This document shows positions 10,687 to 32,563 of a stretch of 32,711 bases of DNA, piece by piece. The notes under the pieces are model-generated. The model had not been told where the DNA came from and did no database searches. It saw only the letters and a list, made by a program, of their open reading frames with translations. This DNA is from Bacteroidales bacterium (lineage in GTDB: Bacteria; Bacteroidota; Bacteroidia; Bacteroidales; P3). Where the stretch lies: the NCBI GenBank assembly GCA_017645585.1, contig JAGCOF010000014.1, positions 1 to 32,711 of the forward strand. The letters are read 5' to 3'. The first letter of the stretch is position 1, and every line of letters starts with the position of its first letter. Made by a program: the position numbers and the translations under genes.

Positions 10687-10700
10687 AACACTTGACAATT

Positions 10701-13700
10701 ATGAAGAAATACATCCTTATAGCCTTTGCCCTGCTGCTGTGTCTCCCCGTGTTGGCGCAGAGGAGTTCGGTGCCCAACTTCAGTGTGGAAGAACTGCCGG
10801 CTGAGCTGCTGAATTACCTGAACGGCAATGCGCCCGACAGCGACAAGCAGAAAGAGAACAAGCGCACCATCGAGGCCTTCGGCTCGGCCTACAACGCAAT
10901 GGACGAGCGCATGCAGGAACGTGTGGTGAATGTCTTCATCTATGCGGTCAAGTCCAAGATGAAGGGTAACCCCGAGATTGGCGACCTGGCACGCGTGATG
11001 ACGGCCTATGCCAATGCGGGCGACAACTTCGGTGGCTGGATGATGGCCCTGGAGACCTACTCCAAGCGCAACGCCAAAGCCAAGTATACGGTTGATTTTG
11101 TGACGTGGAGTGACCTGTTGCTCAGCGAGCGTGTGCTCTACCGCTCCAGCAGCAGCGAGTGGAGTTTCGACAACAAGACCCCCTTCCGCCTCGGCGTGGA
11201 GGAGGGGAGTGTCCGCGTGTGGTTCGACAGCCCGTCGGACCTGCACTATGCCTCCTCGAAGGATTGGAACGCCATTCACGGCACCGTGGGTGTGTTCGAC
11301 TACAAGGACGGCCTCTGGCGTGGCCAGGGCGGCCGCCTCGATTGGGCCCGCACAGGCCTGGGAGCCGAAGCCTGCTATGCCGACCTGGGCCGCTACAAGG
11401 CCGAGGTGAAGTTCCCCAAGTTCACCGCCGACAGTGTGCAGTTCGTCAATACGCACTACTTCAGCCAAGCCATTCTTGGACGTGTGGAGGAGGCCATGCA
11501 AGGCTCGATGGAGCCCGAGAAATACACCTACCCCCGTTTCCGCAGCTACCAGCGCGATTTCGTCATCCGCAACATCATGCCCGATGTGGATTACAGCGGC
11601 AGTTTCATGATGAACGGCTCCAAGTTTATCACTGCCAGCAGCAAGCATCCCGCCAGCCTCATTTTCAACCGTGGCGGCAAGCCCCAGCTGAGCGTCACCT
11701 CGCTGAAGTTCACCATCACCCCTGAGCGTCTCAGTGCCGAGAACGCGCAGGTGGCTTTCTATATCGGCAGCGACGACTCCATTACCAATACCGGCGTCAC
11801 GGTGCGCTATATTCCGGCCGAGCGCAAGGTAACGCTCGTCAACAACCAGCAGCGCAACTTCTACAGCCCCTATATCGACACCTACCATCAGCTGGATATC
11901 TACAGCGAGAGCATCGTATGGCTCACAGACAAGGACCGCCTCGAGTTCTCGGCGCTGGCCGCCGAAGGGGCACTCAGCACCTCTACCTTCGAGAGCAGCA
12001 ACTACTACACCTACCGCAAGTATCGCGATATACAGGGCATCGACGAGATCAGCCCCGTGCAGCGTGTGTACGACTATGCCGAGGGTAACAATTACTATTT
12101 CTCGGTCAAGAAATTCGGCAACTATATCGGCCTCGACGAGAGCCAGACACTGTTGATGATACATACCCTCTGCCGTCACGGTTTGGTCAGCTACAACGAG
12201 ATGACAGGTCGTGTGCTGGTCAAAGACAAGTTGGAAGACTATGTCAAAGCTTTTTCGCATGCCAAGGGCTTCGACTATGACGCCTTGACGCTTGAAAGCA
12301 CCACCCGTGGCGTCAACGCCCGGATGAGCCTCAACGACTATGACCTCACCATCCGTGGGGTGGAGCAGTTTGTGGTCAGCGACAGTCACGCGGTGGTGGT
12401 GCGCCCCGATTCCGTTTCGGGCCGCATGGTGCATGTGGGCAAGAACCGCAATATACACTTCAGCGGCACGGTGGAGTGCGGCAAGTTCATTATGCAGGTC
12501 ACCGACTGTGACTTCAACTATGAGGGCTTTGCCTTCGATATGCCCACCATCAACAAGGTGGAGTTCTATGTGCCCGACTTTGTCAATCCCGACTACGAGC
12601 AGTTGGTGCGCACTCCCTTGAGCGGTCTGGTGGGCAGTCTGCAGGTCGACCGGCCCGACAATCACAGCGGCCTCACCAAGAACAAGGAATACCCCATCTT
12701 TGTGAGCCGCGAGAACAGCTATGTCTACTACGACCGCAAGGCCATCCAGAACGGGCAATACAAGCGGGAGAGCTTCTACTACACACTGCACCCCTTCACC
12801 ATCAACAGCTTGGCTGACTTCGTCACCGACAGCCTGCAGTTCAATGGTGTGCTCACCTCGGCCGGTATCTTCCCTGACATTGTCGAGCCCCTGAAGGTGC
12901 AGCAGGACTACTTCCTCGGCTTTAACACCGAGACCCCTGCCGGCGGACTGCCTGCCTACGGTGGACGTGGTACCTATGGCAAGAATATCCGTCTCGACAG
13001 TCACGGTCTGCATGGCAAAGGCAAACTCGACTACATCGTGTCGCGTGCCGCTTCCGACGACTTCCTCTTCCTGCCCGACTCGGCGCTGGCCGTCACCGAT
13101 ACTTTCTTCGTCCGTGAGGAGCAGGGGTATCCTGATGTCCAGGGAGGTCGCACGTCGCTCCATTGGCTGCCCTATCGCGATTCGCTCGATGTGACTACCT
13201 TCGGCAAGGGCCGTCCCCTGACCATGTATCACTCCGACGCCCAGCTGCGCGGCCACATGGCGGTGATGCCCAAAGGCGCAATGGCTGCCGGCACTGCCAC
13301 CGTCAAGGAGGGCACCCTCGTCAGCAACCGCTTCGACCTGCTGGCGCGCGAGATGAACGCCACCGTCAGCGACTTTACCCTGCGTAGCACCACCTTCGGT
13401 AACGTTGCCTTCTCGGCCAAGCGAGTGCAGTCGCACGTCGACTATGATGCTCGTCACGCCGACCTCACCATGCCTGGTGGACCGCAAATCACCGAGTTGC
13501 AGCTGATGCAGTATGAGGCTTATGCCGACCACTTCTCATGGGATATGGACCGCAAGGTGCTTGACATCAGCAACGCTACACGAGGTACCTCTGAGGGACT
13601 CGATGGCATGGACATCCGTATGCGTCTGCCTAAAGCCGACGATATGCCCGGTGTGCGCTTCGTGAGCACCGACCCCAAGCGCAATGGCCTCACTTGGAAC

Positions 13701-15221
13701 GCCCTCCTCTCCACCTACCGTTACAATGCCGCCGACCTTACCGCCACCGGTGCCTACCTTATTCCTGTGGCTGACGCCGTCATTGCTCCTGCCGCCGACA
13801 CCCTCCACATCGACAAGGGCGGCGCTATGCGTCCGCTCAACAATGCCACCATCCTTTGCGACCGCACCAATGCCTGGCACCTCGTCAGCGATGCCTACCT
13901 CGTTGTCAATGGTGCCAACAGTTATAATGGCAAGGGTTACATCGAGTGGCCGCCGACAGTTGAGCCAGCCTCCGAGCCGCAGCGTATCTATCTCAGTGAT
14001 ATAAACGTTGTCAACGGCACTACTGTAGGCAACGGCACCGTCAACGAAACCGCCACCATCAACCTCAGCCCCGCCTTTGCCTTTGCCGGCAAGGTGCGTA
14101 TGGAAGGCGACAAGCAGTTGCTCTGGTTCGAAGGCGGTGTGCGTCTGCTGCAGACCTGCATCCCGCGCGAGCAAACGGGCCTGCTGGCCTATGCCGGCTA
14201 TACCGACCCCGATGACATACACATCACTGTGCCTGAACTGCCTACCGATTGGCGTGGTAAACGCATTACCGCTTCCATACTCCTCGACAAGGGCACCCTT
14301 AAGCCCACCGCTGCCTTCCTCACCAATGAACGCGCCGCCGACAACGAGTTGCTCGGTGCCCACGGCGTGCTGGCCTATTTGCCCGACAGCCGCACCTACA
14401 TCATTGGTTCCGAAGAGAAGGTCGACGACCCCGAAGCCGTCACCGAACCTTACCTCGCCATGCGAACCGACGGCTGTGTGGTCGAGGGAGAAGGTCCTGT
14501 CAACCTCTCTCTCAAGCGCACCCAGGCCAACTTTTACGCCTATGGTAGCGCTTCTGTGGGCATCCAGCGTTCCGACGAGGACCGCCTGAATACCGTCTTC
14601 GGCTTCTCCTTCCCATTGGCCCCCGAGGCTGTCGCCACTATGGTCGACGCCCTCAAGGATGACCTCCGCCTGGCTCCCACCAGCCCTACCTCCAACGCTG
14701 AGATGCGCCATGCGCTGATGTACCACCTCGGCACCGAGAAGGGAGCTGCCGCCTATGCCGCCTATAGTTCAGAGGGTCGCCTCGAGCGAGTGCCTGAGGC
14801 TATGCGTAGCATGTTGCTCTTCGACAACGTCCGTTGGCAGCATCTGCCGGGCTTCGGCCTCTATGCCGACGGCAAGGTGGGCCTTGTGGCTTCGGGCGAC
14901 AAGTCTCTTGGCCTCCAGGTGCGTTTCAAGGCGCAGATTACCAAGCGCGGTAATGCCCAGCAGATGACCCTCTATGTGGAGGCTGCGCGCGACCATTGGT
15001 ATTTCTTCCGCTACGATATTCTCTCACAAGACTTGACAATCTACTCTTCGATGGGTGTGTTTGAGGACGCCATCAAGTCGGTCCCCGCCGAGAAGCGCCG
15101 TGTTGAGAAAGACGGCCTCGGCATCTTCCGTTATCATATCGGCAACAGCCGCAGCGAAGTCTCCGATTGGCTCACCCACTTCAGCAAGACCGTCTATGCT
15201 GGCGACGAAGAGGACTTTTAA
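10701..15221 (+). CDS. Large exported protein of unknown function
   Basis: A 1506-residue protein with a clear signal peptide (MKKYILIAFALLLCLPVLAQ) and no later membrane helix, so periplasmic or surface. I do not recognise a named domain. The N-terminal ~150 residues look helical (IEAFGSAYNAMDERMQERVVNVFIYAV); most of the rest is beta-rich with repeated strand-turn patterns such as HVGKNRNIHFSGTVECGKF and NVAFSAKRVQSHVDYDARHADLTM, suggestive of a long beta-helix or AsmA/LPS-transport-like beta layers. No T9SS sorting domain is seen at the C-terminus (VYAGDEEDF). The start at 10701 is chosen for the signal peptide; a TTG at 10683 would add six residues and overlap prfA. Lying between prfA and dnaE with short gaps, it is probably co-transcribed with them. 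Confidence 0.85.
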   Translation: MKKYILIAFALLLCLPVLAQRSSVPNFSVEELPAELLNYLNGNAPDSDKQKENKRTIEAFGSAYNAMDERMQERVVNVFIYAVKSKMKGNPEIGDLARVMTAYANAGDNFGGWMMALETYSKRNAKAKYTVDFVTWSDLLLSERVLYRSSSSEWSFDNKTPFRLGVEEGSVRVWFDSPSDLHYASSKDWNAIHGTVGVFDYKDGLWRGQGGRLDWARTGLGAEACYADLGRYKAEVKFPKFTADSVQFVNTHYFSQAILGRVEEAMQGSMEPEKYTYPRFRSYQRDFVIRNIMPDVDYSGSFMMNGSKFITASSKHPASLIFNRGGKPQLSVTSLKFTITPERLSAENAQVAFYIGSDDSITNTGVTVRYIPAERKVTLVNNQQRNFYSPYIDTYHQLDIYSESIVWLTDKDRLEFSALAAEGALSTSTFESSNYYTYRKYRDIQGIDEISPVQRVYDYAEGNNYYFSVKKFGNYIGLDESQTLLMIHTLCRHGLVSYNEMTGRVLVKDKLEDYVKAFSHAKGFDYDALTLESTTRGVNARMSLNDYDLTIRGVEQFVVSDSHAVVVRPDSVSGRMVHVGKNRNIHFSGTVECGKFIMQVTDCDFNYEGFAFDMPTINKVEFYVPDFVNPDYEQLVRTPLSGLVGSLQVDRPDNHSGLTKNKEYPIFVSRENSYVYYDRKAIQNGQYKRESFYYTLHPFTINSLADFVTDSLQFNGVLTSAGIFPDIVEPLKVQQDYFLGFNTETPAGGLPAYGGRGTYGKNIRLDSHGLHGKGKLDYIVSRAASDDFLFLPDSALAVTDTFFVREEQGYPDVQGGRTSLHWLPYRDSLDVTTFGKGRPLTMYHSDAQLRGHMAVMPKGAMAAGTATVKEGTLVSNRFDLLAREMNATVSDFTLRSTTFGNVAFSAKRVQSHVDYDARHADLTMPGGPQITELQLMQYEAYADHFSWDMDRKVLDISNATRGTSEGLDGMDIRMRLPKADDMPGVRFVSTDPKRNGLTWNALLSTYRYNAADLTATGAYLIPVADAVIAPAADTLHIDKGGAMRPLNNATILCDRTNAWHLVSDAYLVVNGANSYNGKGYIEWPPTVEPASEPQRIYLSDINVVNGTTVGNGTVNETATINLSPAFAFAGKVRMEGDKQLLWFEGGVRLLQTCIPREQTGLLAYAGYTDPDDIHITVPELPTDWRGKRITASILLDKGTLKPTAAFLTNERAADNELLGAHGVLAYLPDSRTYIIGSEEKVDDPEAVTEPYLAMRTDGCVVEGEGPVNLSLKRTQANFYAYGSASVGIQRSDEDRLNTVFGFSFPLAPEAVATMVDALKDDLRLAPTSPTSNAEMRHALMYHLGTEKGAAAYAAYSSEGRLERVPEAMRSMLLFDNVRWQHLPGFGLYADGKVGLVASGDKSLGLQVRFKAQITKRGNAQQMTLYVEAARDHWYFFRYDILSQDLTIYSSMGVFEDAIKSVPAEKRRVEKDGLGIFRYHIGNSRSEVSDWLTHFSKTVYAGDEEDF

Positions 15222-19925: not shown

Positions 19926-21440
19926 ATGAAACGAATAGCCGTTCTTCTCGTTCTACTGCTGGCCGCCCGCCTCGCGGGGGCGCAGCAGGGCCTGGTGGTG
20001 GAGAGCTTCAGGCTCGACCCCTTCGACGCCACCGCCGCCACCTCGGAGCACCAGGTGCTCGACAACAACCTCAATCCCTGCGCGCTGGTCAAGGTGATGA
20101 TTATCGACAACACCGTCAACTTCAAGAGCGATTGGATTATCCGCACCGACTCGCGCGGCAAGAACGAGTATTGGGTCTACCTCTGCGAGGGCACGCGCAG
20201 CCTCACTGTCCGTTCAGACTTCTTCCTGCCGACGGAGGTGGTTTTTGCCGACTATGACCCCGAGATTATGGGCCTCAAGAAGAAGAATACCTATGTGCTG
20301 ACGCTTTCATATGCGGGCGAGATTGAGGACGGCAAGGTGGGCGTTACCTTCGCCTGCAACTCGCCGATGGCAGAGTACTTGATAGACGGATACGCCACAG
20401 AGCGCAACACCAACACCTTCCGCATCGAGCCCGGGGAGCACACGGTAGAGGTTAAAGCCGACGGCTACCAAAAGCTGACCACCACCGTCAAGGTCAGCCC
20501 TTACCTGAAGCGGCAGGAAATAGCCCTCACGCTCACGCCCGACCAAAGCATTGACTCTCTGATGGCCGAAGGCGACCGTTACTACGGCGAGAAGAACTAC
20601 ACAAAGGCCCTCGACCTCTACCGTCAGGTAGCAGCCAAAGGCAATGTCACCGCCATGAAATATATCGGTTACGCATATCTTTATGGTGAGGGCGTTGAAA
20701 AAGACTATGCGCAAGCCTTCAAGTGGTATAGTCAAGGGGCTGACAGGGGGGATGCCGGTTGTCAGTTGAAAATGGGATATATATATCTTGAAGGTTTGGG
20801 TGTTCAAAAAGACTATACCGAAGCAGTCAAGTGGTACCGCCTTGCAGCTGACCAGGGTCGGCCCTCGGCACAGAACGAAATGGGGAATATGTATTATAAT
20901 GGCCAAGGTGTGTCGCAGGATTACATGCAAGCATTTGAATGGTATAGCAAAGCAGCAGGCCAAGGTGATTATTATGCGCAAACCAATTTGGGAGTGATGT
21001 ATGGGAATGGTGTGGGAGTGTCGCAAGATTACACGAAAGCCTTTGAATGGTTCAGTAAGGCTGCAAATCAAGGTTTTGCTCCCGCACAAAACTTTTTGGG
21101 TGTGATATATGAGAATGGGATTGGTGTTCGGCAGGATTATTCACAAGCGTTTGAGTGGTACACGAAAGCTGCCAATCAAGGTGATGCCGAGGCACAATGC
21201 AATCTGGGGGTAATGTATTTTAGTAAGCGAGGGGTAAAAAAGGACTATCAGAAAGCATTTGAATGGTTCAGCAAGGCTGCGAACCAAGGGAATGACCATG
21301 CACAGTTTTGTTTGGGCGCTATGTATGAATATGGCTGGGGCGTGAAGAAAAACAAGGCTGAAGCGGAAAAATGGTACCTCAGGGCGGCGGCCCAAGGCAG
21401 TGATGCTGCTATAAAGGCCCTTGAGCGTTTGCAGGATTGA
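19926..21440 (+). CDS. Exported PEGA-domain protein with Sel1 repeats
   Basis: A 504-residue protein. Residues 1-19 form a signal peptide (LLLAARLAGA before Gln-Gln). Residues ~21-130 are a module shared with the gene at 24218-25471. A PEGA-like domain follows at ~137-204 (IDGYATERNTNTFRIEPGEHTVEVKADGY), then a TPR-like helix pair, then seven 36-residue Sel1 repeats (~241-492; pattern A.YNLG.MY..G.GV.QDY.KAFEWY.KAA.QG). Sel1 repeats build a solenoid for protein binding; PEGA domains are typically surface or cell-wall associated. The Sel1 half is distinctly AT-richer than the first 230 codons. It starts 19 nt after the GSCFA gene. A scaffold role in the envelope is inferred. Confidence 0.88.
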   Translation: MKRIAVLLVLLLAARLAGAQQGLVVESFRLDPFDATAATSEHQVLDNNLNPCALVKVMIIDNTVNFKSDWIIRTDSRGKNEYWVYLCEGTRSLTVRSDFFLPTEVVFADYDPEIMGLKKKNTYVLTLSYAGEIEDGKVGVTFACNSPMAEYLIDGYATERNTNTFRIEPGEHTVEVKADGYQKLTTTVKVSPYLKRQEIALTLTPDQSIDSLMAEGDRYYGEKNYTKALDLYRQVAAKGNVTAMKYIGYAYLYGEGVEKDYAQAFKWYSQGADRGDAGCQLKMGYIYLEGLGVQKDYTEAVKWYRLAADQGRPSAQNEMGNMYYNGQGVSQDYMQAFEWYSKAAGQGDYYAQTNLGVMYGNGVGVSQDYTKAFEWFSKAANQGFAPAQNFLGVIYENGIGVRQDYSQAFEWYTKAANQGDAEAQCNLGVMYFSKRGVKKDYQKAFEWFSKAANQGNDHAQFCLGAMYEYGWGVKKNKAEAEKWYLRAAAQGSDAAIKALERLQD

Positions 21441-22960: not shown

Positions 22961-23395
22961 CTATTTGTTGCGGACGCCGTAGCCCACCAATTGACGGAGC
23001 AGCGCATCGTAGTTGAGGTTGATGTATACCGAGCCACGATAGCGCCCTGTGGGCGTTTGGCGCGGTTCGTCCTCAAGCTGCGCACCGGCGATGTGGGGCT
23101 TGTAGGGGGCGTTCTTGCCGGTGAAGAAGGTGTGCGAGAGCCAATATTTGTTCTCCTTCTGCATCAGTTTCTCGCCGCCGTTGATGCCGGGCACGCCTTC
23201 GGTGAGCAGGATATACATCAGCGCTTCGCTTGCGCAGGCTTCGATGTCGCCTTTCTTGTCCACCTCCACCTCGACGGCGAAGAGGGCCTGTTTGCCTTTG
23301 TGCTCCAGCAGCACGGCCTTGCCGTCATAGGTGTTCTGGGCTGCCGCCGAGAACAGCGACAGCACCAGAACGGCCAATGTTAAGAGTTTCCTCAT
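22961..23395 (-). CDS. Small exported protein of unknown function
   Basis: A 144-residue protein with a signal peptide (MRKLLTLAVLVLSLFSAAAQ). The mature part is a mixed alpha/beta domain with LLEHKGKQALFAVEVEVDKKGDIEACASEALMYILL, which resembles no family I can name. It starts 12 nt after the CsgG/LpoB-like gene and is the last gene of the nine-gene minus-strand operon. The central segment carries the only Cys of the mature protein. A periplasmic or outer-membrane-associated role is inferred from export and neighbours only. Confidence 0.8.
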   Translation of the reverse strand: MRKLLTLAVLVLSLFSAAAQNTYDGKAVLLEHKGKQALFAVEVEVDKKGDIEACASEALMYILLTEGVPGINGGEKLMQKENKYWLSHTFFTGKNAPYKPHIAGAQLEDEPRQTPTGRYRGSVYINLNYDALLRQLVGYGVRNK

Positions 23396-23407
23396 GATAA
23401 GTGCTGT

Positions 23408-24160
23408 TTAGAAGTGCAGCCAGGGCTCCTCCTTGGAGGTGACGACCATCTGGATGCCTTCGTCGAAGTTAGTCTTGATTTCCTTGTTGCCTTTGGTGAT
23501 GGTGATTTCGGACATTTCCTCGCCCATCACCTCTTTCACCTTGGCGGTGCCGATGGTCTTGTAGACCTTCTTGCCGGCGATTTCGGTCTCGACCTGCACG
23601 TCGAAATAGAGACCGTCGCAGACACCGATTATTTCGCCACCCTCAATGTAGGCGGTGTTGGCTTTGTCCTTCTTGGCTTCGTTGATGCCCACGAGGGGAA
23701 CGCGCACGGGGCAGCCTTTGTCGATGAGGCGGCGCATATCCTGGTCCTGGAACTTGAGGGCGTCGTTGATGGAAGCATCCTTGCTGCCGTTGTCGGTACC
23801 AATGCTGCTGGCGTCGCGGGTGGCCATCACTTTGCCGGTGCGGGCGTCAGTAATCTGCAGGTTGAAGTTGACGGTGGTGGCCCAATAGTCACCGGTGAGG
23901 GTGCTGGTTTTCTTTTCGGTGGTGGGGTCGGCGATGCGGCCGGTGATGATGTAGTCCACTTTGTCTTTGTCAACGTTGTTCAGGTCAACGGCATTGACGC
24001 GGCAGGTGGGCATGGCGGTCAGGGCGGCGGAGCGCATGGCGGAAGCATTCTTGCCGGTGAACTCGCCGACGGCGACGGTGACTTTCTCTTTGGTGTACTG
24101 GGCATAGCAGAACGACATACCCATCAGCGCTAACAGCGCAAAGGTGAATACTTTCTTCAT
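23408..24160 (-). CDS. Exported CsgG/LpoB-like domain protein
   Basis: A 250-residue exported protein (signal MKKVFTFALLALMGMSFCYAQ). The mature part runs KVTVAVGEFTGKNAS, then VDYIITGRIAD, then TTVNFNLQITDARTGKVMATRDASS. This order of strands (a first strand on a conserved functional F, a 'D-Y-I-I-T-G' strand, and 'L-x-D-x-x-T-G-x-V') is typical of the CsgG/LpoB/TolB-N-like periplasmic fold. CsgG forms outer-membrane export pores; LpoB activates peptidoglycan synthases. It has no lipobox, so it is not a classic CsgG lipoprotein. A C-terminal beta-rich extension (GGEIIGVCDGLYFDVQVETE) follows. It lies 57 nt behind the SUMF1-fold gene, the largest gap in the operon, with no promoter element that I can see. 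Confidence 0.75.
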   Translation of the reverse strand: MKKVFTFALLALMGMSFCYAQYTKEKVTVAVGEFTGKNASAMRSAALTAMPTCRVNAVDLNNVDKDKVDYIITGRIADPTTEKKTSTLTGDYWATTVNFNLQITDARTGKVMATRDASSIGTDNGSKDASINDALKFQDQDMRRLIDKGCPVRVPLVGINEAKKDKANTAYIEGGEIIGVCDGLYFDVQVETEIAGKKVYKTIGTAKVKEVMGEEMSEITITKGNKEIKTNFDEGIQMVVTSKEEPWLHF

Positions 24161-24217
24161 AATGGTGTTGTTTTTATTTTAAATGTTTGTATTGTTTTGT
24201 ATTGTTCGTTGCTTTTT

Positions 24218-25471
24218 TCAATCGTCCATGGCGAGACGGAAGCCCACGGTGGGCGCCGAGTCGTTGGGGTCCATGTGGTTGCGGGTGGTGGCGCGGAGCG
24301 GATAGTCGGTCGGCGAGTCATAGCTGCCGCCACGGATCACGCGGTGCCAACCACGGTCGGGACCCGAGGGGTTGACGGTGCGCTCGGTGGGGTAGTAGCC
24401 AAACCAATCGGAGCACCATTCGGCCACGTTGCCGGCCATGCCTTTAAGCTTCAGCACGTTCTCGCCGCAGGCCGAGACAAGGCCAGGGGTGTTGGTCTTG
24501 TAGATGGCGCCTTTGGGGGCTTTCTGTCCGTCGTTGGTGCCGCGGGCACGGGCGGCGAACTCCCATTCTGCCTCGGTGGGCAGACGGAAGTGGGTGCCGC
24601 AGCGGGCGTTGAGGCGCTTGATAAACTCGAGACAGTCGTCGTAGGTGACGTTCTCCACGGGCCGGTTGGGCTCGCCCTGGTAGACCGAGGGGTTGCTGCC
24701 CATCACCTTCTCCCACAGGGCCTGCGACACCTCGGTGGCGCCGATGCTGTAGTTGCGCAGCACCACGTCGTGGGGAGCGGCTACGTTGAAGTTGGCCTTG
24801 TTGAGCACGTCGGTGGTACCCATGGTGAAGGTGCCGCCGGCAATCTTGACCATCTCGTAGCTGATGCCGTCGAGCGAGAAGGTGCCGGCAGCGTGCATGG
24901 TCATGCTGCAGGTAATTTTCTTGTTCAGCTGGATGTCCACGGTTTGGCGCTCGTCGTTGTAGCCTTTGGCGCGCAGCTCGATGTCGTGCTTGCCTTCGGG
25001 GCCCTTGTATTCGTAAGGGGTCACGCTGCTCATCTTCTCGCCGTCCACATAGACGTCCACGTCCTTAATGTTGCTCTCAATTTTCACGGTGCCGGTGGGA
25101 CCGTCGTAGGCAATCTGTGGGCGTTCGATGTTCATCACGTAGGTGACGTTGCTCTCGATGGGGTTGAACTCGTGGCGCAGGGGCAGGTACTTCTTGGTCT
25201 TGATGGTGATCCAATTGGCCCCCTTCATCATGTAGACCCACCACTCGCCGTCTTTGTATTCCTGCGAGATGATGTCACCCTCGAACTGTGCGTCGGGGAT
25301 GACGAGGCCCATGCGGATGAGGCCGCAGCGCACGCCGTTGGCGTCCTCTTTGGGATACTTGACCGCGTCGGTCATCGTCATGTCGGCACGGAACTCAAGC
25401 ACCTTCAGTTCCTGGGCGAAGGCACCGAAGCTGAGCAGGACCGTAAGGGCTGCTATCAGTACTTTCTTCAT
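24218..25471 (-). CDS. Exported PEGA + formylglycine-enzyme-fold (SUMF1) protein
   Basis: A 417-residue protein: signal peptide 1-19, a module at ~21-117 homologous to that of the Sel1 protein at 19926-21440, a PEGA domain at ~125-190 (VDVYVDGEKMSSVTPYEYKGPEGKHDIELRAKGY), then an FGE/SUMF1 fold at ~205-414. Fold markers are GGTFTMG, ATEVSQALWEKVMG, RLPTEAEWEFAAR, GMAGNVAEWCSDW, RGGS and VGFRL. The two active-site cysteines that true formylglycine-generating enzymes carry just after RGGSY are absent (residues 384-393 hold Ser, Thr and Pro instead), so it is probably structural or a binding protein, as for GldJ/GldK-type relatives. It starts 8 nt after the NTF2-like gene. Confidence 0.9.
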   Translation of the reverse strand: MKKVLIAALTVLLSFGAFAQELKVLEFRADMTMTDAVKYPKEDANGVRCGLIRMGLVIPDAQFEGDIISQEYKDGEWWVYMMKGANWITIKTKKYLPLRHEFNPIESNVTYVMNIERPQIAYDGPTGTVKIESNIKDVDVYVDGEKMSSVTPYEYKGPEGKHDIELRAKGYNDERQTVDIQLNKKITCSMTMHAAGTFSLDGISYEMVKIAGGTFTMGTTDVLNKANFNVAAPHDVVLRNYSIGATEVSQALWEKVMGSNPSVYQGEPNRPVENVTYDDCLEFIKRLNARCGTHFRLPTEAEWEFAARARGTNDGQKAPKGAIYKTNTPGLVSACGENVLKLKGMAGNVAEWCSDWFGYYPTERTVNPSGPDRGWHRVIRGGSYDSPTDYPLRATTRNHMDPNDSAPTVGFRLAMDD

Positions 25472-25479
25472 GATGGAAG

Positions 25480-26439
25480 TTAGTTAAGTTTGAAGTTGTT
25501 GAGGGTGAAGACCTCGCTGTCGTCGATCTGCATGGGCTGCCAGGTGCGGACCATGATTTTGGGTTGGAACTCGTCGGTGAAGTCCCAGACGATAAAGACG
25601 ATGCCCTCGTCGCTGTAGTTCTTGGTGAACCAGCCCTGCTTCAACGTGACGCCGTAGTAGTTGGGCTTAGCGCCGTGGCGCACAATCTCGATGTCGTCGA
25701 ACTTGACGTTGATGTAGCCGTTGTTCTTGAACACGCGGCGCAGGCCGGCGAGGTATTGCTGCTTGCCCTGGGTGGTGTATTCCACGCTGATGGGCTTCAT
25801 GTCGGTGTGCTCGCGCTTGACCACCTTACCGGTGACAATCAGGGCATCGTCGCTGAAGACGTTCTCCATGAAGTTGATGTCCTTCTGGCAGTAGGCGTTG
25901 CGGAACTGCTCCACCCAGTGGAGTATCTGCATGCGGCGGTCCATGTCGTTCAGTTTCTCACCTTCCTTGATAATCTTCAGGTATTGCTGCAGACCCATGG
26001 TGATGTTGAAGTCGCTGATTTTGCCGTTGCGGTCAAAGTTGATGCAGACCTCCTGGTTGCGGTCGCCCACATAGGAGTTGTCGAGGGGCTTCATCTCCAC
26101 GGCGATGTTGCGCACCTGGTAGCCGATGACGGCGCCCGAGCTGGACTTGACACGGAGGCAGTGCTCCACGATGTCGTCGTCGACCACGCGGAAGTGCACG
26201 TTGTTCCACATCATGCCGATGCTCTGTGATGCAAGGTTGTCGATGCCAATGCCGCTGTAGTTGATGTCGGCGTTGCGCGACTCGGCGCGGTTGATGGCCG
26301 TCAGCAGGCGTGTGGTGTTCTGCTCCATGGTGGCCTTGATGGTGCCGTCGATGCCATCGGAGAACTCGAAAGCAACTTCGTCCTGGGCGTGCAGGGCAAA
26401 GGGGAGTAGCATGGCCAATACTAATAATATCTTTTTCAT
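25480..26439 (-). CDS. Exported protein with NTF2-like C-terminal half
   Basis: A 319-residue exported protein (signal MKKILLVLAMLLPFALHAQ). The C-terminal half begins with a helix, HWVEQFRNAYCQKDINFMENVFSDDALIVTGKVV (about 174-207), the usual opening of an NTF2/SnoaL-like domain, and continues with strands of the expected type (YYGVTLKQGWFTKNYSDEGIVFIVWDF). The N-terminal half is a beta-rich domain that I do not recognise. No catalytic residues can be assigned. The gene is 8 nt after the LPP20-like gene and 8 nt before the SUMF1-fold gene, so all three are one transcript. Confidence 0.8.
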   Translation of the reverse strand: MKKILLVLAMLLPFALHAQDEVAFEFSDGIDGTIKATMEQNTTRLLTAINRAESRNADINYSGIGIDNLASQSIGMMWNNVHFRVVDDDIVEHCLRVKSSSGAVIGYQVRNIAVEMKPLDNSYVGDRNQEVCINFDRNGKISDFNITMGLQQYLKIIKEGEKLNDMDRRMQILHWVEQFRNAYCQKDINFMENVFSDDALIVTGKVVKREHTDMKPISVEYTTQGKQQYLAGLRRVFKNNGYINVKFDDIEIVRHGAKPNYYGVTLKQGWFTKNYSDEGIVFIVWDFTDEFQPKIMVRTWQPMQIDDSEVFTLNNFKLN

Positions 26440-26447
26440 CTTTGTTG

Positions 26448-27281
26448 TTATTTTGCTAAGTTAAACCAAAGTGCGTTCATACCTTTGTACTCGCTAAGCG
26501 AGGAATATTGCATGTTTTTGTAGTCGATGCGCTGCGTGGTGCCAGGACCCAGGATGGTCACCAACTTGCCGTTGCTGTCGAAGATGGCCCAATAGGCATC
26601 GGCGGCCGAAGGGCAGTTGTCGGCGTTGCCGTAACGCTTGATTTTGTATTCGGCTTTCAGACGGTTCAGTTTGGCGCGTACCGACGTCATGTCGGGGCAC
26701 TCGAGCAACGACACCATTGCCATCTGCTGCCATCCCGTAAGGGGCGACTCCACCTTGCCTGTGGTAGTGGCTGCGGGCTGTTGTTGCTGTTGCGGTTGAG
26801 TCTGACTTGCTTTTGGAGCGGGAGCAGGCGTCTCGGTGACGGTCGGCATTGAGGTGCTTTGGGTGGTGTTCGTCATACCTTGGGCAGGCAGGTTCACTGC
26901 CGTGTTGGTGTTGTTGTTCACCGCCACGGTGTTGGTGACTGCCTCAATGTCGTACTTTTTGACGTAGACAAACACACGGTGCATCTCGCCGCGCATCATG
27001 CTGAGCGACTCGCCCTTGGTCTTTACGTCCTTGATAAGCACGTTGTCGGCGGCGCTGAGCATTTGGCTTGAGGCAATGTATTCCTGCACCTGCTGCAGCA
27101 GCAGTTCATAGGCCACGCTCTGTGCTTCCTCCTCACTCTCCATCGTCGCTTCAGCGTAGAGGTAGAGGGGGCTGCGCTTAATCTGGTTGATTTGCTTTGA
27201 GGTGGTCTGGGCCATGGCCGAGAACCCCATCAGCAATGCTGCGGCCGCGAGGGCCACCCTTTTGAATTTATTTATATTCAT
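26448..27281 (-). CDS. Exported LPP20-like protein with Gln-rich linker
   Basis: A 277-residue protein with a signal peptide (NINKFKRVALAAAALLMGFSAMAQ). The N-terminal domain, SPLYLYAEATMESEEEAQSVAYELLLQQVQEYIASS, matches the pattern of LPP20/FlgT-N-like domains. A low-complexity linker rich in Asn, Thr, Pro and Gln (including QTQPQQQQQP) leads to a C-terminal domain, about 90 residues, not recognised. The start at 27281 has AAGGAAA just upstream and gives a normal signal peptide; a longer reading from 27320 lies mostly inside the preceding gene. The chosen start overlaps the preceding gene by 14 nt. LPP20-like domains occur in envelope lipoproteins and flagellar T proteins. Confidence 0.8.
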   Translation of the reverse strand: MNINKFKRVALAAAALLMGFSAMAQTTSKQINQIKRSPLYLYAEATMESEEEAQSVAYELLLQQVQEYIASSQMLSAADNVLIKDVKTKGESLSMMRGEMHRVFVYVKKYDIEAVTNTVAVNNNTNTAVNLPAQGMTNTTQSTSMPTVTETPAPAPKASQTQPQQQQQPAATTTGKVESPLTGWQQMAMVSLLECPDMTSVRAKLNRLKAEYKIKRYGNADNCPSAADAYWAIFDSNGKLVTILGPGTTQRIDYKNMQYSSLSEYKGMNALWFNLAK

Positions 27282-28212
27282 TTTCCTTAAATAATGATTT
27301 GACATTGGAAATAGGTACATAGCTGTTCAGTCGCGCGCTCATGTTGCCTTTGCGGTCGACAAGGATGGAGGGATTGAACTCGAACTTCATCACATGGGCA
27401 TAGCCGAGGGCCTCGTTCTGCATCACGTATTCGCAGACCACCTTGCCCTCCTCCGAACTGATGACGCCGAAGAATGGGGTGCATCCTTGCTCGATGCCGA
27501 AGGCCACCCACTGACGTAGCGGCACGGTGGCATCTTCGGTGCGGTAGCCGTACTTCACCATGCGTATGTCGAGCATGAGCTGGTTGTCAATGTCGGTGCC
27601 GGTGGTCAGGTTGGCCATGGTCTCCAAGGGCAGGTCCTCGCTGTATAACAGTTCGAACTTTCCGTGCTCATTCTTGACATAGTAGCGGTTGGTGTTCAGC
27701 TCGGGCAGAACATAGCTGGAGCCCGCCAGCAGGTAGACAGCACTTGTGCCCATCTGTTGAAGCAGCTCTTCCACTACCTGATGTTCCTCCACCTTAGGCA
27801 GCGGGGTGCGCCACACATCCTCGAACAGCCGGTTCTCGGCTTCCATCAGGGTAGTGCCGAGGATGAGCTGGTAGGAGGCGGGATAGCTGATGATGACCGT
27901 GCGCTGGTCGCCACGGAAGAAACTCACCGCATAGCGTTTGCCATCGACAAGGCTGATTTCAATTGCTGCGCTGTCGGCCAAAGCCGCTTGCAGCTGGCTG
28001 AAGCCACCTTGCAGGAAGGCAATCTTCTCCTCGCGCAGGTAGGTGTCCACAGGCTTGCCCTGTATCTCACCCTGTGCGTAGCCTTCGGTCAGGCGCTGCA
28101 GAAAGCGGTAGTGCTGCTGCTCCACCCCCGTCTGGGCCACGGCCGTCGCCGAGCCTCCTACAAGGAGCAGGAGGCTCAGGGCGAAGGTCGTCAATAAGCG
28201 ATGGATGTTCAC
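27268..28212 (-). CDS. Exported protein of unknown function
   Basis: A 314-residue protein with a signal peptide (LLTTFALSLLLLVGGSATAVAQ). The mature part starts with a helical segment (EQQHYRFLQRLTEGYAQGEIQGKPVDTYL) and continues as mixed alpha/beta (DGKRYAVSFFRGDQRTVIISYPASYQLILG). I do not recognise the family. It begins 6 nt after the zinc-ribbon gene and its 3' end overlaps the LPP20-like gene by 14 nt, so the two are probably translationally coupled. A short conserved-looking C-terminal motif, SYVPISNVKSLF, closes the protein. Confidence 0.8.
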   Translation of the reverse strand: MNIHRLLTTFALSLLLLVGGSATAVAQTGVEQQHYRFLQRLTEGYAQGEIQGKPVDTYLREEKIAFLQGGFSQLQAALADSAAIEISLVDGKRYAVSFFRGDQRTVIISYPASYQLILGTTLMEAENRLFEDVWRTPLPKVEEHQVVEELLQQMGTSAVYLLAGSSYVLPELNTNRYYVKNEHGKFELLYSEDLPLETMANLTTGTDIDNQLMLDIRMVKYGYRTEDATVPLRQWVAFGIEQGCTPFFGVISSEEGKVVCEYVMQNEALGYAHVMKFEFNPSILVDRKGNMSARLNSYVPISNVKSLFKENEYK

Positions 28213-28218
28213 TTTGCT

Positions 28219-28815
28219 TTAGATGTTGAACCACTTGCGGGTGCCATCGGCACGGTGCAGTTCGCCGGCACGCAGGATGCCATTCTCGAACTTGGTGTTC
28301 TCGATGGTTTCGCCGGCGCTCACCTCAAGCTTCGAGCCGCGACCGTCCTTCAGGTCGATGCTGTAGCTCTGGGTGATTCTCAGCGAGCCGCCCACACCGT
28401 GAGGAACGCCTCCTTGGGTAGGACCTTGATAGTTGGCCCAGCCGAGGTTCTTGCTGGCGGTCGAGGTGGTTTGTTTGGGAGTATCCTGAGTGGTCTTCTT
28501 GGGTTCGGCTTTCTTTTCGGCAACGGGAGCCTCGACAGCCTCAATGACGGTGTCGTTGGTGGCTGCTTTATCCTTCTTGCCGTTGAGGCCGAAGTAGGCA
28601 CCGGCACCGCCGCCACCGAGCACCACGATAGCAGCCGCGATAATCAGGGGCAGTTTCTTGTTGCCTCCCGAGGGCTTGGTCTTGCCTTCCAGCTCGTGCA
28701 GGTCTTTGCCGCACTCCTGGCATTTGAATTCGGTAGAATCTACCTCTTGGATTTCGTTATTGTCTGCAAGCGAGCAGTTGTCAAAGTTCTTGCAGACGCC
28801 TTTCTTTAGTGCCAT
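28219..28815 (-). CDS. Zinc-ribbon, single-helix membrane protein with MORN-like end
   Basis: A 198-residue protein without a signal peptide. Cys8, Cys14, Cys32 and Cys35 (C-x5-C ... C-x2-C-G) form a zinc ribbon. One membrane helix follows at about 55-77 (PLIIAAAIVVLGGGGAGAYFGL), flanked by Lys. A Lys/Thr/Pro/Ala linker leads to a C-terminal part with YQGPTQGGVPHGVGG, close to the MORN pattern YxGxxxxGxPHGxG. The positive charges before the helix place the zinc ribbon in the cytoplasm and the MORN-like end outside. It lies 21 nt behind the tubulin-like gene, so it is a good candidate to tie that GTPase to the membrane. The MORN call rests on one motif and is tentative. Confidence 0.8.
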   Translation of the reverse strand: MALKKGVCKNFDNCSLADNNEIQEVDSTEFKCQECGKDLHELEGKTKPSGGNKKLPLIIAAAIVVLGGGGAGAYFGLNGKKDKAATNDTVIEAVEAPVAEKKAEPKKTTQDTPKQTTSTASKNLGWANYQGPTQGGVPHGVGGSLRITQSYSIDLKDGRGSKLEVSAGETIENTKFENGILRAGELHRADGTRKWFNI

Positions 28816-28836
28816 AATATTCTATTGTTTTTAAGT

Positions 28837-31800
28837 TTATGCTTCTTTTAATTCGTTGTTGAGAATCTCGACGGCGAGGTTCTTGTACTTCTGGAACTCG
28901 GGATGGAATTCGTTGCCTTCGCAGAGCGAGTCCTTCACCAAGGTGGACAGCACCTGACCCAGGATGGGCTTCAGGGCAGCCTTCTGGTCGTTGCTGCGTG
29001 CCTCGGTCTGCAGGGTGCGCTGCACCAGGTTCTGCAGTTCGACGGCTTTGCCATAGTCGTTGGACAGGGCTTCCCATACCGTGGCGAAGGTTTTTCCGAG
29101 CGGGACCCACTCGTCGTTGCCGAAGACATCTTTCTTCTTCATGGCCGAGAAGCGTTCGCCCGTGGTGGGGTTCTGCTGCTCCTGGATGAGACCGAGGGTG
29201 TAAGCCAGCATCAGAGGTTTGATAACCTCCTTGCGGATGTCGCGGCTGTCTTTCTCGAAGAGTGACGGGAACTGCAGGCCGCTTTCGGTATGCAGCACCA
29301 TGCGGTTGAAGGCACCATCGGGGGCGGCCAACAGGCGCTCGTACTTGTCGCGCAGGGTGACCATGTTGGCCAGGTAGCGCAGCGGGAAGCCGGCGTTGAC
29401 GCACACGCACACAATCTCGTTGGGTTTGTAGTGCGTCGACACATCCTGCGGCGTGAAGCCCGGGACAGCCTTCATGAAGGCGTCGACCAGCTGGTTGCGG
29501 AAGGCCTGGGTGCTCTCATCGGCGGCGGGGATGCTCACCTGCACCATGCTCATCATGGCACCGGTGTTGCCGGCGATGACTTTGCTCTTCTCCTGGGCGT
29601 TGAACTGCACATAGGTGCTGGCGTTCTGCACAATCTGCTTGACGAACTGTTCCAGGCGATCCTCGCTGGTGAGTTCTTGTTTCAGTTTGTCAAGGATGTT
29701 GACACCCACCATGCGGCTCAGCGGGTCGCTCTTGGCGGTCTCCTCCATGGCGCTGACGGCGTTGTCGGTGCAGATGTCGAGTACCGTGTCGCTCACGCTG
29801 TTGAAGTCGGTCTTGTCATACAGGTTGGCAAACGAACGCTCGCCGTCCTCGCCGAGGTTGGCAATAAGGCTGTTGCGGACGCTTTGTGCTGTCTGTTCCT
29901 GATATTCCTTGTTGGAGGTGTACTGACGCACAATCATGCGCACTTTCTCGGGGTCGTACTTCTTGATGTTCGACTCATCCTCGTCCTCGTGGGTCTTGCA
30001 CTTGCTGGCAGCCTGCTTCTCCACCTCGACGTTGATTTCGGCGATGCGGTCCTTGAAGGCACGCACACCTTCCTGCATCTTGCTCAGCTCGAGCACGATT
30101 TCGCCGAGGAGTTCCTTGGCGTAGTCGTAGGCCTCCATGCGGGTCGTGGTGGTGTAGTAGTCGCTGATGGCGGTCTGGAAGCGGCCGAAAATCTTGCCCG
30201 AGGCACCGGTGATGGCGTCGCGCAGCCACCCGATGTTGTCGTACTCAATCTTCTGCAGCTTCATCTCGTCGATGGCTTTGGGCAGGGCGTCGTTGGCCAG
30301 GTTGGACTTCTGGGTGGTGAACTTGCCAATGCGCTCGTTGCAGTCGCCGATGAGGATGCCGATGTATTTCTCAATCTCGAGCATCGACTTGTTGCCGGTG
30401 GCCCAATCGGTGAACATTTTGTTCTCGATGTGGCGGCGGATGAACTTGGCGTAGGCCTTCAGTTCTCTGCGCTGGTTGGCGTAGAAGGTCTTGACGCCCT
30501 GGTTGCGGAAGTCGCGCTCGAAGAAGTTCTTGCAGCGCTCGGTGAGCTCGTTGACCCACGTCTTCTTGTCGGCCACGGTCTGCATGATGTCGTTCACCTC
30601 GCGGGCGGTGCGGGTCTCCCAGGTGTTGTCGAGTTCTTTCCACTTCTTGCTCGAGTCGTTCTCGATAATCATCTCCGACAGCATCAGGTGGCTGTTGTCG
30701 AGCATCAGCGAGCCGCGGTTCTTCGGGCTCTTGATTTCCTCCACATAGCCGGAGCCCACCTCGTCGAGGGTGCGCTCGCTGTAGCCCTGGCCGTCGAGCC
30801 AATAGTTATAGGTGAGCTGTTTGGCAGCCTGGGTGGCATAGCTGTAGGTGACGAATTCGCGCACCTCGCTCTCGGGATAAGCCACACGGGTGATACCGAA
30901 GCTGAGGAACTTGCGCGAGCGGGTACGGGCACCCGACTGATCCACCTCGGGGCCAGCGCCTTCGTTCTCGCAGCCTTCCATGCGGGCCATCTTGCCCTGG
31001 CCGCCGGCCAGCGTGCTGGCCACTACGGTCTGGAACAGGAAGTCGGCCACCACGGCGGGCAGCGCATGACCCAGCTCGAGCACCTTGCCGCGCTCGTTGA
31101 CGTTGCTGTAGATATAGCAGGCTTCGAAGGGCTCCTGGTTCTGCAGCAGGCGCTGCACCTGGCCGCTGAAGATGTCGCGCTCGCCCTTGACGTCGACGGG
31201 CTTGTAGCTGCCCACGCTCATGGCGTTGAGCTCGGAGAGGGCGGCGTAGCCGTTGGCCTGGTAGAAGCCGGCGTCGTGGTCGGTGTGCACCATCGTCTGC
31301 TCGGGCATGTACACCATCAGGCGCATCTTGAAGGATTTGGTGTCTTGGTTGTAGGGGAACCAGGTGCGTATCTGGGTCACGGCGTCGACAATGGAGCCGG
31401 AACCCGTGCCGCCGGCCAAACCGGCGCAGATGTGGAAGGTCACATCACTATCGCCGCTGTCTTGCTGCAGACGCTTGACGGCGCCACGCACAACGCTCTC
31501 GAAGTTGAGCGAATTGTTCTTGTCGCTCAGGTTGTTGGCAATCAGGGTGCGGCCCAAGCGGCGGCGCTGGCCACCGATACCGGCGCTGATCAGCGGACCC
31601 ATCTTTTCGCGCATCATGCGGATGTCTTCGGGGTTGAGGAAAGCCTGCAGGCCGGGATACATGTTGATGTTCTCCAGCATCGAGGCGTTGATTCCGTTGA
31701 TGTTCACTTTCTGGCTCTCGCCCAGGTGCACGCTCTTACCCATGACCTTCCAATCCTTGCGGTCGTTGAGGTCGGCGGGCGACGAGTCGACATAGACGTA

Positions 31801-31920
31801 GTCGAGGTGCAGGCCGTGGCCGGGCTCGATGGTGCGGAACTCTTCGTAGATGCGTTTGCGGAACTCGCGCAGGACTTTGCCGCCGGTGCCGCCTAATCCG
31901 ATGATAAGGTGATTTGACAT
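28837..31920 (-). CDS. Tubulin/FtsZ-superfamily GTPase (Tubulin_2-like)
   Basis: A 1027-residue cytoplasmic protein with no signal peptide. The N-terminus, LIIGLGGTGGKVLREFRKR (about 5-23), is the first nucleotide-binding strand-loop, and ICAGLAGGTGSGSIVDAV (about 164-181) is the tubulin signature loop (G-G-T-G-S-G), a variant of the FtsZ GGGTGTG. Both suit the large Tubulin_2 (PF13809) type rather than FtsZ, which is about a third of this size. The long C-terminal part (about 400-1027) is mainly helical, with regions likely to form coiled coils (KEYQEQTAQSVRNSLIANL, EIVLELSKMQEGVRAF). Relatives are little studied and are often predicted to act in membrane remodelling. It is the second gene of the nine-gene operon. 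GTP binding is inferred from motif; polymerisation is a guess. Confidence 0.87.
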   Translation of the reverse strand: MSNHLIIGLGGTGGKVLREFRKRIYEEFRTIEPGHGLHLDYVYVDSSPADLNDRKDWKVMGKSVHLGESQKVNINGINASMLENINMYPGLQAFLNPEDIRMMREKMGPLISAGIGGQRRRLGRTLIANNLSDKNNSLNFESVVRGAVKRLQQDSGDSDVTFHICAGLAGGTGSGSIVDAVTQIRTWFPYNQDTKSFKMRLMVYMPEQTMVHTDHDAGFYQANGYAALSELNAMSVGSYKPVDVKGERDIFSGQVQRLLQNQEPFEACYIYSNVNERGKVLELGHALPAVVADFLFQTVVASTLAGGQGKMARMEGCENEGAGPEVDQSGARTRSRKFLSFGITRVAYPESEVREFVTYSYATQAAKQLTYNYWLDGQGYSERTLDEVGSGYVEEIKSPKNRGSLMLDNSHLMLSEMIIENDSSKKWKELDNTWETRTAREVNDIMQTVADKKTWVNELTERCKNFFERDFRNQGVKTFYANQRRELKAYAKFIRRHIENKMFTDWATGNKSMLEIEKYIGILIGDCNERIGKFTTQKSNLANDALPKAIDEMKLQKIEYDNIGWLRDAITGASGKIFGRFQTAISDYYTTTTRMEAYDYAKELLGEIVLELSKMQEGVRAFKDRIAEINVEVEKQAASKCKTHEDEDESNIKKYDPEKVRMIVRQYTSNKEYQEQTAQSVRNSLIANLGEDGERSFANLYDKTDFNSVSDTVLDICTDNAVSAMEETAKSDPLSRMVGVNILDKLKQELTSEDRLEQFVKQIVQNASTYVQFNAQEKSKVIAGNTGAMMSMVQVSIPAADESTQAFRNQLVDAFMKAVPGFTPQDVSTHYKPNEIVCVCVNAGFPLRYLANMVTLRDKYERLLAAPDGAFNRMVLHTESGLQFPSLFEKDSRDIRKEVIKPLMLAYTLGLIQEQQNPTTGERFSAMKKKDVFGNDEWVPLGKTFATVWEALSNDYGKAVELQNLVQRTLQTEARSNDQKAALKPILGQVLSTLVKDSLCEGNEFHPEFQKYKNLAVEILNNELKEA

Positions 31921-31966
31921 AGTGATGTGTGTTTGTTTATTGATTTATTTTTGTTTGTTTTCCCAA

Positions 31967-32440
31967 TCAGAAGTCCTCGAAGCGGGTGTTGGTGCTGTAG
32001 CCCTCGCCGTCGTCGCGTCGGCGCGAGGGGCCTCGGCGGCCGCCCACGTCCTGCATGGTGCGTTCGGTGATGAAATAGGTCAGCACCGAGGTGAGCACCA
32101 TCAGGATGATGCAGACGATGATGGTGCGGTTGGCGGTGCGCTCGATGCGGTCGTTGACGCGCTGCGAGAGCTCCGACACGCCGTAGTTGACTATTTCGTC
32201 GGCGCCCATGGCGGTGGCTATGTCGTTCACACCTTCGCCCACGCCGGCCACCGTGGCCGTCAGGTTCTGCTTGGCTTCGATGGCGCCCGTCAGGCCCGAC
32301 GCCTCGAGCCACAGCAGCAGAAAGCCCACTGCCAGAACAATATACGACAAGGTCGTCAGTTTCTTACGTCCGTTCATACCTGTGACCAACAGGCTCACCA
32401 GCAGTGTCAGCACAAGTGCTATGATAATTCCCCAAGGCAT
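31967..32440 (-). CDS. Three-helix inner-membrane protein of unknown function
   Basis: A 157-residue protein with membrane helices at about 4-22, 28-49 and 105-123. Between helices 2 and 3 is a roughly 50-residue segment with an amphipathic or coiled character (ATVAGVGEGVNDIATAMGADEIVNYGVSELSQRVNDRIERTANR). The C-terminus is basic then acidic (GGRRGPSRRRDDGEGYSTNTRFEDF) and should be cytoplasmic by the positive-inside rule. It is the first gene after the promoter at 32532-32563 and lies 46 nt before the tubulin-like gene. A membrane anchor or receptor for that GTPase is a plausible role. I know no family match. Confidence 0.8.
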   Translation of the reverse strand: MPWGIIIALVLTLLVSLLVTGMNGRKKLTTLSYIVLAVGFLLLWLEASGLTGAIEAKQNLTATVAGVGEGVNDIATAMGADEIVNYGVSELSQRVNDRIERTANRTIIVCIILMVLTSVLTYFITERTMQDVGGRRGPSRRRDDGEGYSTNTRFEDF

Positions 32441-32531: not shown

Positions 32532-32563
32532 CAAAGGTAAACACTTATTTTGAATTTTGCAAG
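32532..32563 (-). promoter_or_regulatory. Promoter of the nine-gene tubulin-like operon
   Basis: On the minus strand, a -7 element TACCTTTG (32539-32532) fits TAnnTTTG, and a TTG (32562-32560, within CTTG) lies 20 nt upstream, the correct distance for the Bacteroidota -33 element. The sequence between them is AT-rich. Transcription would begin about 85 nt before the first gene, leaving a leader with no obvious riboswitch or long hairpin. Confidence 0.75.

Follow-up and report, generated by a model that had tools for sequence, protein, structure and literature searches.

What a large tubulin-like GTPase does beside a row of exported proteins is the question raised by a nine-gene operon on the minus strand of contig JAGCOF010000014.1 (assembly GCA_017645585.1) of a Bacteroidales bacterium. 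The window, i.e. the whole stretch of DNA analysed (32,711 nucleotides (nt)), is the entire contig; the source genome is 83% complete in 62 contigs and contains the GTPase gene as a single copy. In the literature that we found, the role of such proteins (FtsZl1/Tubulin_2) has since 2010 been a predicted one only. A preliminary description of this locus placed the GTPase at the centre of the operon and connected it through two membrane proteins to an exported assembly. Comparison of homologous loci shows two modules, one made of the GTPase and the predicted zinc ribbon of gene 3, the other of the transmembrane (TM) helix and MORN-type domain of gene 3 with genes 4 to 6, that have been recombined in several lineages. 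We favour, at a probability of roughly 0.55, a transmembrane signalling device in two parts, whose envelope assembly would address interchangeable cytoplasmic heads, here the ribbon with the tubulin-like GTPase. The features of the operon, with lengths in amino acids (aa), are as follows.

32532..32562, minus strand: promoter of the Bacteroidota type (TTG-N20-TAnnTTTG), predicted from a consensus match
31967..32440, minus strand: gene 1, three-helix membrane protein, 157 aa (open reading frame and hydropathy)
28837..31920, minus strand: gene 2, tubulin-like GTPase (Tubulin_2/FtsZl1 type), 1027 aa (PF13809)
28219..28815, minus strand: gene 3, zinc ribbon-TM-MORN transmembrane adaptor, 198 aa
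28693..28815, minus strand: zinc ribbon of gene 3, residues 1-41, co-inherited with gene 2
28654..28692, minus strand: recombination junction zone of gene 3 between zinc ribbon and TM helix, position deduced from relatives
28597..28653, minus strand: TM helix of gene 3, residues 55-73 (hydropathy)
28219..28446, minus strand: periplasmic MORN-type domain of gene 3, co-inherited with genes 4-6
27268..28212, minus strand: gene 4, exported, family without a Pfam name, 314 aa, shared envelope core
26448..27320 (possible start 27281), minus strand: gene 5, exported, LPP20-like N-terminal part, 290 aa
25480..26439, minus strand: gene 6, exported, possibly NTF2-like, 319 aa, the envelope protein with the highest conservation
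24218..25471, minus strand: gene 7, exported PEGA and SUMF1-fold protein, 417 aa, accessory (Pfam)
23408..24160, minus strand: gene 8, exported, no family assigned, 250 aa
22961..23395, minus strand: gene 9, exported, no family assigned, 144 aa

The nine genes and their gaps agree with those first described, the gap of -14 nt requiring gene 5 to start at the in-frame methionine 14 (a 14-nt overlap with gene 4; 53 nt with the longest frame). The gene 2 protein exhibits a high scoring match to Tubulin_2 (E-value = 2e-51, 175.8 bits against a Pfam cut-off of 27), and its GTP-binding loop GGTGSG (signature G-G-T-G-S/T-G) is unchanged across 15 aligned relatives, in support of its annotation as a Tubulin_2-like GTPase. 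The gene 3 protein likewise has the described organization: the cysteine pairs of a zinc ribbon at the N terminus (by eye), one TM helix by hydropathy, and a C-terminal part of which the profile matches MORN1 in PDB (E-value = 1.1e-4). Gene 1 exhibits the expected three hydrophobic helices. Pfam matches of genes 1, 3, 4, 5 and 6 all lie below cut-off, genes 8 and 9 have none, and PDB profile searches with genes 2, 4, 5, 6 and 8 returned nothing useful.

Two modules recombining inside gene 3

Loci were classified with profiles built from the window genes (G, C and L numbers are our handles for genomes, contigs and loci). The GTPase subfamily of gene 2 occurs at 18 loci (the window, L002, L003, L004, L005, L016-L020, L023, L050-L052, L056, L136, L137 and L140; L028 is L005 again). 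All 18 contain gene 3, and genes 4 to 6 are present in all 16 loci not cut by a contig end. The cut loci are L016 and L051, and the L051 genome carries genes 4-6 on another contig (L118). A conserved gene block, as anticipated, is therefore found throughout this subfamily. At L140 (10934-14062) gene 2 is split over two frames, by a sequencing error or as a broken gene, and at L051 (3907-5913) a Lipase_3 lipoprotein gene lies between a three-helix protein and gene 2.

Fifteen genomes with all parts were compared, leaving out L016 (contig ending in gene 4), L051 (no ftsZ in the bin) and L140 (gene 2 interrupted). FtsZ and GyrB served as species markers, L002 having no GyrB in the trees and the window and L005 a partial one; RpoB was dropped, several bins having no copy or a partial one. 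By pairwise identities, the divergence of the GTPase disagrees with that of the exported genes, and the switch between the two patterns falls within gene 3. L002 and L023, sister genomes in the FtsZ+GyrB tree (L002 by FtsZ only), exhibit identities of 26% (GTPase) and 42% (zinc ribbon), against 79% in the MORN part, 79% in gene 4, 58% in gene 5 and 93% in gene 6, with 79% identity again when starting at the TM helix. The reverse is observed for L017 and L052 (GTPase 53%, ribbon 53%, MORN part 28%, genes 4 to 6 18%, 30% and 33%), and the window and L003 are 60% identical in the GTPase, 49% in the ribbon, 30% in the MORN part and 22%, 31% and 38% in genes 4, 5 and 6.

Correlations of distances over the 15 genomes exhibit the same division (Spearman). 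Ribbon distances follow those of the GTPase (rho 0.81) and hardly those of FtsZ (0.15), and MORN-part distances follow genes 4-6 (0.68, 0.74 and 0.81) and also FtsZ (0.53) more than they do the GTPase (0.30); the value for the GTPase and FtsZ is 0.13. In partial Mantel tests with 2000 permutations, the ribbon remains associated with the GTPase given the envelope and FtsZ (0.77, p=5e-4), with 0.20 (p=0.14) for ribbon and envelope. The MORN part in turn is associated with the envelope (0.66, p=5e-4) and not with the GTPase (-0.01, p=0.49), and the GTPase and FtsZ given the envelope yield -0.08 (p=0.66). In approximately unbiased (AU) tests, the GTPase data reject both the envelope tree (AU 2e-50) and the species tree (AU 8e-31), the envelope data reject the GTPase tree (AU 3e-51), and so do the species data. 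The envelope part therefore tracks descent better than the GTPase, though imperfectly.

The junction is also visible in the DNA. Between L002 and L023 nothing matches in the upstream region, genes 1 and 2 and the ribbon (4137 nt of L002, counted from its first), and homology starts 4 nt ahead of the TM helix and continues onward. L017 and L137, which belong to different families, share homology that begins where gene 2 begins, stops 34 nt short of the TM helix and is found nowhere beyond; L017 and L016 match up to 41 nt before the helix, L016 ending shortly after. From these breakpoints, the exchanged unit is gene 2 plus the zinc ribbon. The GTPase and the ribbon thus appear, as far as alignments can tell, to be swapped between species as a unit, with the outer parts left behind. 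The simplest reason for their joint exchange would be that they must fit each other, and such natural domain swaps point to one specific partner of the GTPase, the zinc ribbon of gene 3.

Gene 1, with profile relatives at L002, L005, L016, L017, L018, L020, L023, L136, L137 and L140, was considered as a further member of the swapped cassette. This is unsupported, the rho being 0.06 with the GTPase and 0.26-0.49 with the envelope genes (9 genomes).

A GTPase search of 72,556 plasmid records returned one match (28.7% identity over 92%), an unannotated tubulin-like gene of 1005 aa on a 1.09 Mb plasmid of Paraburkholderia sp. PREW-6R (NZ_CP155075.1, 9881-13725; L188). The next gene there encodes a zinc ribbon-TM protein with a C terminus that by eye is TPR-like and not MORN, and no relatives of genes 4-6 were found in the 22.7 kb of the plasmid that were fetched. 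This pair, one example outside the Bacteroidota, agrees with the GTPase and a ribbon-TM protein forming a lasting unit.

Cytoplasmic heads and a proposed direction of signalling

The TM-MORN protein is also found with other heads. At L113 it bears a protein kinase head (4.7e-28) and is followed by genes 4, 5 and 6; at L114 it bears a TIR head (3.5e-14), followed by genes 4 and 6; and at L119 a TIR head (4.6e-6, 27.6 bits against a cut-off of 28), followed by gene 6 and SUMF1 proteins. Tubulin_2 has no match in any of these three genomes. Motifs typical of these domains are retained: the glycine loop, HxDxKPxN and DFG in the L113 kinase, and a WxxxE glutamate in the TIR domain of L114. A profile of the MORN domain matches 7 of 252 genomes of the order, all within these loci (zinc ribbon 4, TIR 2, kinase 1), 6 of the 7 matches being rows of the profile itself.

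Conversely, the envelope genes and the GTPase family each extend beyond the combination seen in the window. Tubulin_2 is found above cut-off in 14 of 149 genomes of the family (8 with this subfamily) and 10 of 295 of the order (5 with this subfamily). Weaker matches (E-values of 1e-5 to 1e-3) were disregarded: none of the five loci fetched among them (L029-L033) received the gene-2 label, and two weak matches, G148:C29 and G013:C103, are ftsZ matches. Ten other Tubulin_2 loci that were fetched (L021, L022, L024-L027, L053-L055 and L057) contain none of genes 3-6, L024, L025 and L057 lying on contigs shorter than 9 kb. Neighbours were scanned at four of the ten: L026 has a vWA and L053 an Hsp70-like match above the Pfam cut-off, L055 a vWA match below it, and L021 none. 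A GTPase without the exported genes, named beforehand as the case that would speak against the proposed operon, is thus not seen at the 16 uncut loci of this subfamily, but is seen at these ten loci. The gene 6 profile matches 18 of 149 family genomes and 35 of 295 order genomes, and the gene 4 profile 15 of 393 order genomes and 9 of 395 phylum genomes (4 of the 9 only at E-values of 1e-8 to 1e-16); many of the genomes matched by either profile lack this GTPase. The observation of the preliminary description is confirmed, and its interpretation is supported in part, for the link through gene 3 and for the conserved block. Its view of an operon built around the GTPase is not supported, genes 4 and 6 (and often 5) being common without the GTPase and the GTPase being swapped together with the ribbon of gene 3.

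In the signalling device that we propose, the exported proteins would form a periplasmic assembly, with the PEGA-SUMF1 proteins as accessory recognition parts, and gene 3 would read this assembly by way of its MORN domain and TM helix. Its zinc ribbon would be where the GTPase docks, and would alter the nucleotide or polymer state of the GTPase. The GTPase would then be the cytoplasmic output, taking the place of the phosphorylation or TIR activity of the sister versions, and gene 1 a further membrane anchor. The GTPase is read as an output because kinase and TIR heads suit outputs or regulators and not motors. We infer contact, direction and purpose, and the outside-to-inside direction is the least certain step. 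If the proposal is correct, tubulin-family GTPases would count, beside kinases and TIR domains, among the plug-in outputs of a transmembrane receptor.

Several observations weigh against this proposal. Kinase and TIR heads are three only (L113, L114 and L119), and L119 lacks genes 4 and 5. At L115 and L142 the MORN protein is lipoprotein-like or has a single N-terminal hydrophobic segment, with no cytoplasmic domain, and eleven loci (L109-L111, L138, L139, L141 and L143-L147) contain genes 4 and 6, and gene 5 in some, with no MORN protein and, at several of them, with TPR, Sel1 or WG-repeat neighbours. These headless and MORN-less loci show that a cytoplasmic head is dispensable. The alignment of the zinc ribbon spans just 41 columns, a moderate correlation (0.40) persists between gene 2 and genes 4 and 5, the envelope data reject the species tree (AU 1.3e-5), and the species data marginally reject the envelope tree (0.047). 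The same breakpoint could also arise from a hotspot of recombination in the conserved TM stretch, with no need for the GTPase and the ribbon to touch, and single chimeras may be assembly errors, since the genomes are mostly metagenome bins.

The heads bear directly on a different role of the GTPase, that of an outward-acting cytoskeleton which would polymerise under the membrane and, through gene 3, position an envelope structure or drive its assembly, in the way of FtsZ and the divisome. The FtsZ-superfamily fold with its GTP-loop and the membrane and exported partners fit such a role, and membrane remodelling has been published as a proposal for the family (PMC2875224). However, the TM-MORN part, together with genes 4 and/or 6, bears kinase and TIR heads, which could give neither force nor a track, and the envelope core is also found without the GTPase. 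Moreover, in the parts of PMC2875224 considered here, T6-H7 elements are described as not found in the family, and filament formation is left open. We regard this role as unlikely. As the same membrane part bears kinase and TIR heads, a filament driving envelope assembly is less likely, and signalling from the envelope to the cytoplasm is the more likely of the two. The connection proposed earlier, from the GTPase through two membrane proteins to an exported assembly, is accordingly retained as probable for gene 3 and weakened for a filament that drives assembly.

A further reading, tentative and to our mind doubtful, is that of a receptor-like family with one periplasmic sensor and swappable TIR, kinase or ribbon-tubulin outputs, where the GTPase would be a signalling effector, possibly immune, and not a cytoskeletal or division protein. 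Immunity proper against phages or competitors, the envelope part sensing attack and the TIR, kinase and GTPase heads acting as abortive effectors, would fit the TIR heads, the exchange of cassettes and the patchy presence of Tubulin_2 in the family and order. A phage-type integrase gene lies immediately upstream of the operon at L005 (8240-9232), and conflict systems with similar parts have been proposed (PMC7159879, as far as seen). Yet none of the nine proteins has a PADLOC match at E ≤ 0.1 (2023 library), housekeeping genes flank the operon in the window, relatives of gene 6 are found neither in viral contigs nor in plasmids, and relatives of gene 2 are found in no phage. Immunity seems to us slightly less likely even than a cytoskeletal role, and, there being no PADLOC match, the label of a defence system was not adopted.

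Relation to described systems

A literature search, at the level of search results, found no published description of this gene set, as had been supposed; what comes nearest are the vWA/FtsZl1 operons and the GAP1-N2 conflict systems. FtsZl1 and the operons of vWA, GTPase and OmpA genes were defined in 2010, with membrane remodelling as the proposed function (Makarova and Koonin, PMC2875224). The parts of that paper considered here describe, as in our locus, a large protein with an N-terminal FtsZ-like domain and a helical C-terminal part, encoded beside a conventional FtsZ and with membrane and envelope partners, some of these operons including protein kinases; the same parts contain no mention of a zinc ribbon-TM-MORN adaptor or of exported genes 4-6. 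vWA, P-loop GTPase and OmpA domains have no Pfam match in the nine genes and ten other window proteins, the contig ending 271 nt beyond gene 1, and none was found in ten neighbours at eight relative loci.

The GAP1-N2 conflict systems (Kaur et al. 2020, PMC7159879), in the portions considered, have tubulin, HSP70 and kinase themes alternating near the membrane. They share with our locus tubulin-domain proteins, zinc ribbons, the membrane location and PEGA, NTF2 and FGS (SUMF1-fold) domains. They differ in having GAP1 and TRAFAC GTPases at their centre, along with vWA and FNIII proteins, and their tubulin theme is, per the authors, confined to firmicutes and actinobacteria. Here, in contrast, the head is swapped inside one transmembrane protein. 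GAP1/TRAFAC (DO-)GTPase, vWA and FNIII domains have no Pfam match in the nine genes, though Pfam may not model every such domain. Tubulin_2 proteins are presented as a divergent, patchy group in what we have seen of a 2023 survey of FtsZ and tubulin (PMC9871819). Gene 2 is FtsZl1 by family, and the system matches neither the vWA/FtsZl1 operons nor, as far as our tests reach, the GAP1-N2 systems.

With the FtsZ divisome, our locus has in common a GTPase of the tubulin/FtsZ superfamily joined to membrane and envelope proteins. However, the ftsZ equivalog TIGR00065 is absent from the NCBIfam matches of gene 2 at E ≤ 1, and 16 of 17 genomes encode FtsZ separately, the exception being a 65% complete bin; the window genome has its own ftsZ elsewhere (G000:C20). 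In one genome (G116:C25:21897-23882; L166, L167) several partial ftsZ-like matches stand in tandem, one with an internal stop, beside a normal ftsZ, and the L003 genome (G441; L159, L164), a single metagenome bin, exhibits two ftsZ genes above the model cut-off.

Exported proteins, promoter and flanks

The N termini of genes 4-9 resemble export signals by eye. The PEGA and SUMF1-fold assignment of gene 7 stands, both domains being found by Pfam (FGE-sulfatase, E-value = 5.9e-33; PEGA, 2.5e-9), and relatives occur in other loci, sometimes in several copies. Gene 7 was rejected as GldK/PorK of the type IX secretion ring: it has the same SUMF1-type fold, but scores 65.4 bits with TIGR03525 against a cut-off of 350. 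Other assignments fared less well. None of 13 gene-5 proteins matches LPP20 at E ≤ 0.5, and the proposed LPP20 resemblance is reached only through a longer exported family, with residues 3-130 of which the gene 5 profile aligns (probability 96.8) and a member of which (L121) matches LPP20 at 2.5e-8. The NTF2-like character of gene 6 is weakly indicated by Cds6_C (0.0019, below the Pfam cut-off). A CsgG/LpoB-like gene 8 was not confirmed, the window protein matching no family and one of five members having a weak FlgT_C match (0.0034). Relatives of gene 8 in L002, L019 and L023 are 509-524 aa long.

In the order search with the gene-6 profile, 25 of 42 matched places lie inside open frames of 511-676 aa, and in six long frames that were fetched, alignment is to gene 5 in the N-terminal part (probability 96.8) and to gene 6 in the C-terminal one (probability 100). 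This natural fusion of both suggests that genes 5 and 6 may act together. The fusion-like exported proteins, of about 600 aa (L121 8943-10784, L125 4929-6734, L124 8326-10209 and others), often lie near PEGA or SUMF1-type proteins, and are commoner in the order than the split version.

With six exported proteins, SUMF1/C-type-lectin-like folds in repeated copies, and PEGA and Lcl_C/Fib_succ_major-like neighbours, the locus could also be read as an operon that builds a surface structure or exports an adhesin, with gene 3 and the GTPase as mere regulatory passengers. The strict co-inheritance of GTPase and ribbon, with gene 3 at every locus of the subfamily, argues instead for a dedicated link, and we hold passengers of this kind to be quite improbable beside the signalling device proposed above.

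The claim of a single good promoter ahead of the operon is borne out. The match at 32532-32562 to TTG-N20-TAnnTTTG, presumably the Bacteroidota promoter consensus, is the only exact one in the window, where 0.17 are expected and 15 of 100 shuffles contain at least one.

Near the operon, the plus strand of the window (19926-21440) encodes a protein with PEGA and seven Sel1 repeats, which was ranked by the gene-7 profile; Sel1 proteins also adjoin genes 4 and 6 in L109-L111. An open frame of 1512 aa (10683-15221, TTG start) is flanked by genes for a peptide release factor and for DNA polymerase III alpha; it has no Pfam match and is overlapped by long antisense frames. Finally, the 946-aa protein encoded at 6605-9445 carries CHU_C, a signal domain of type IX secretion, and its gene adjoins a polysaccharide exporter-like gene.

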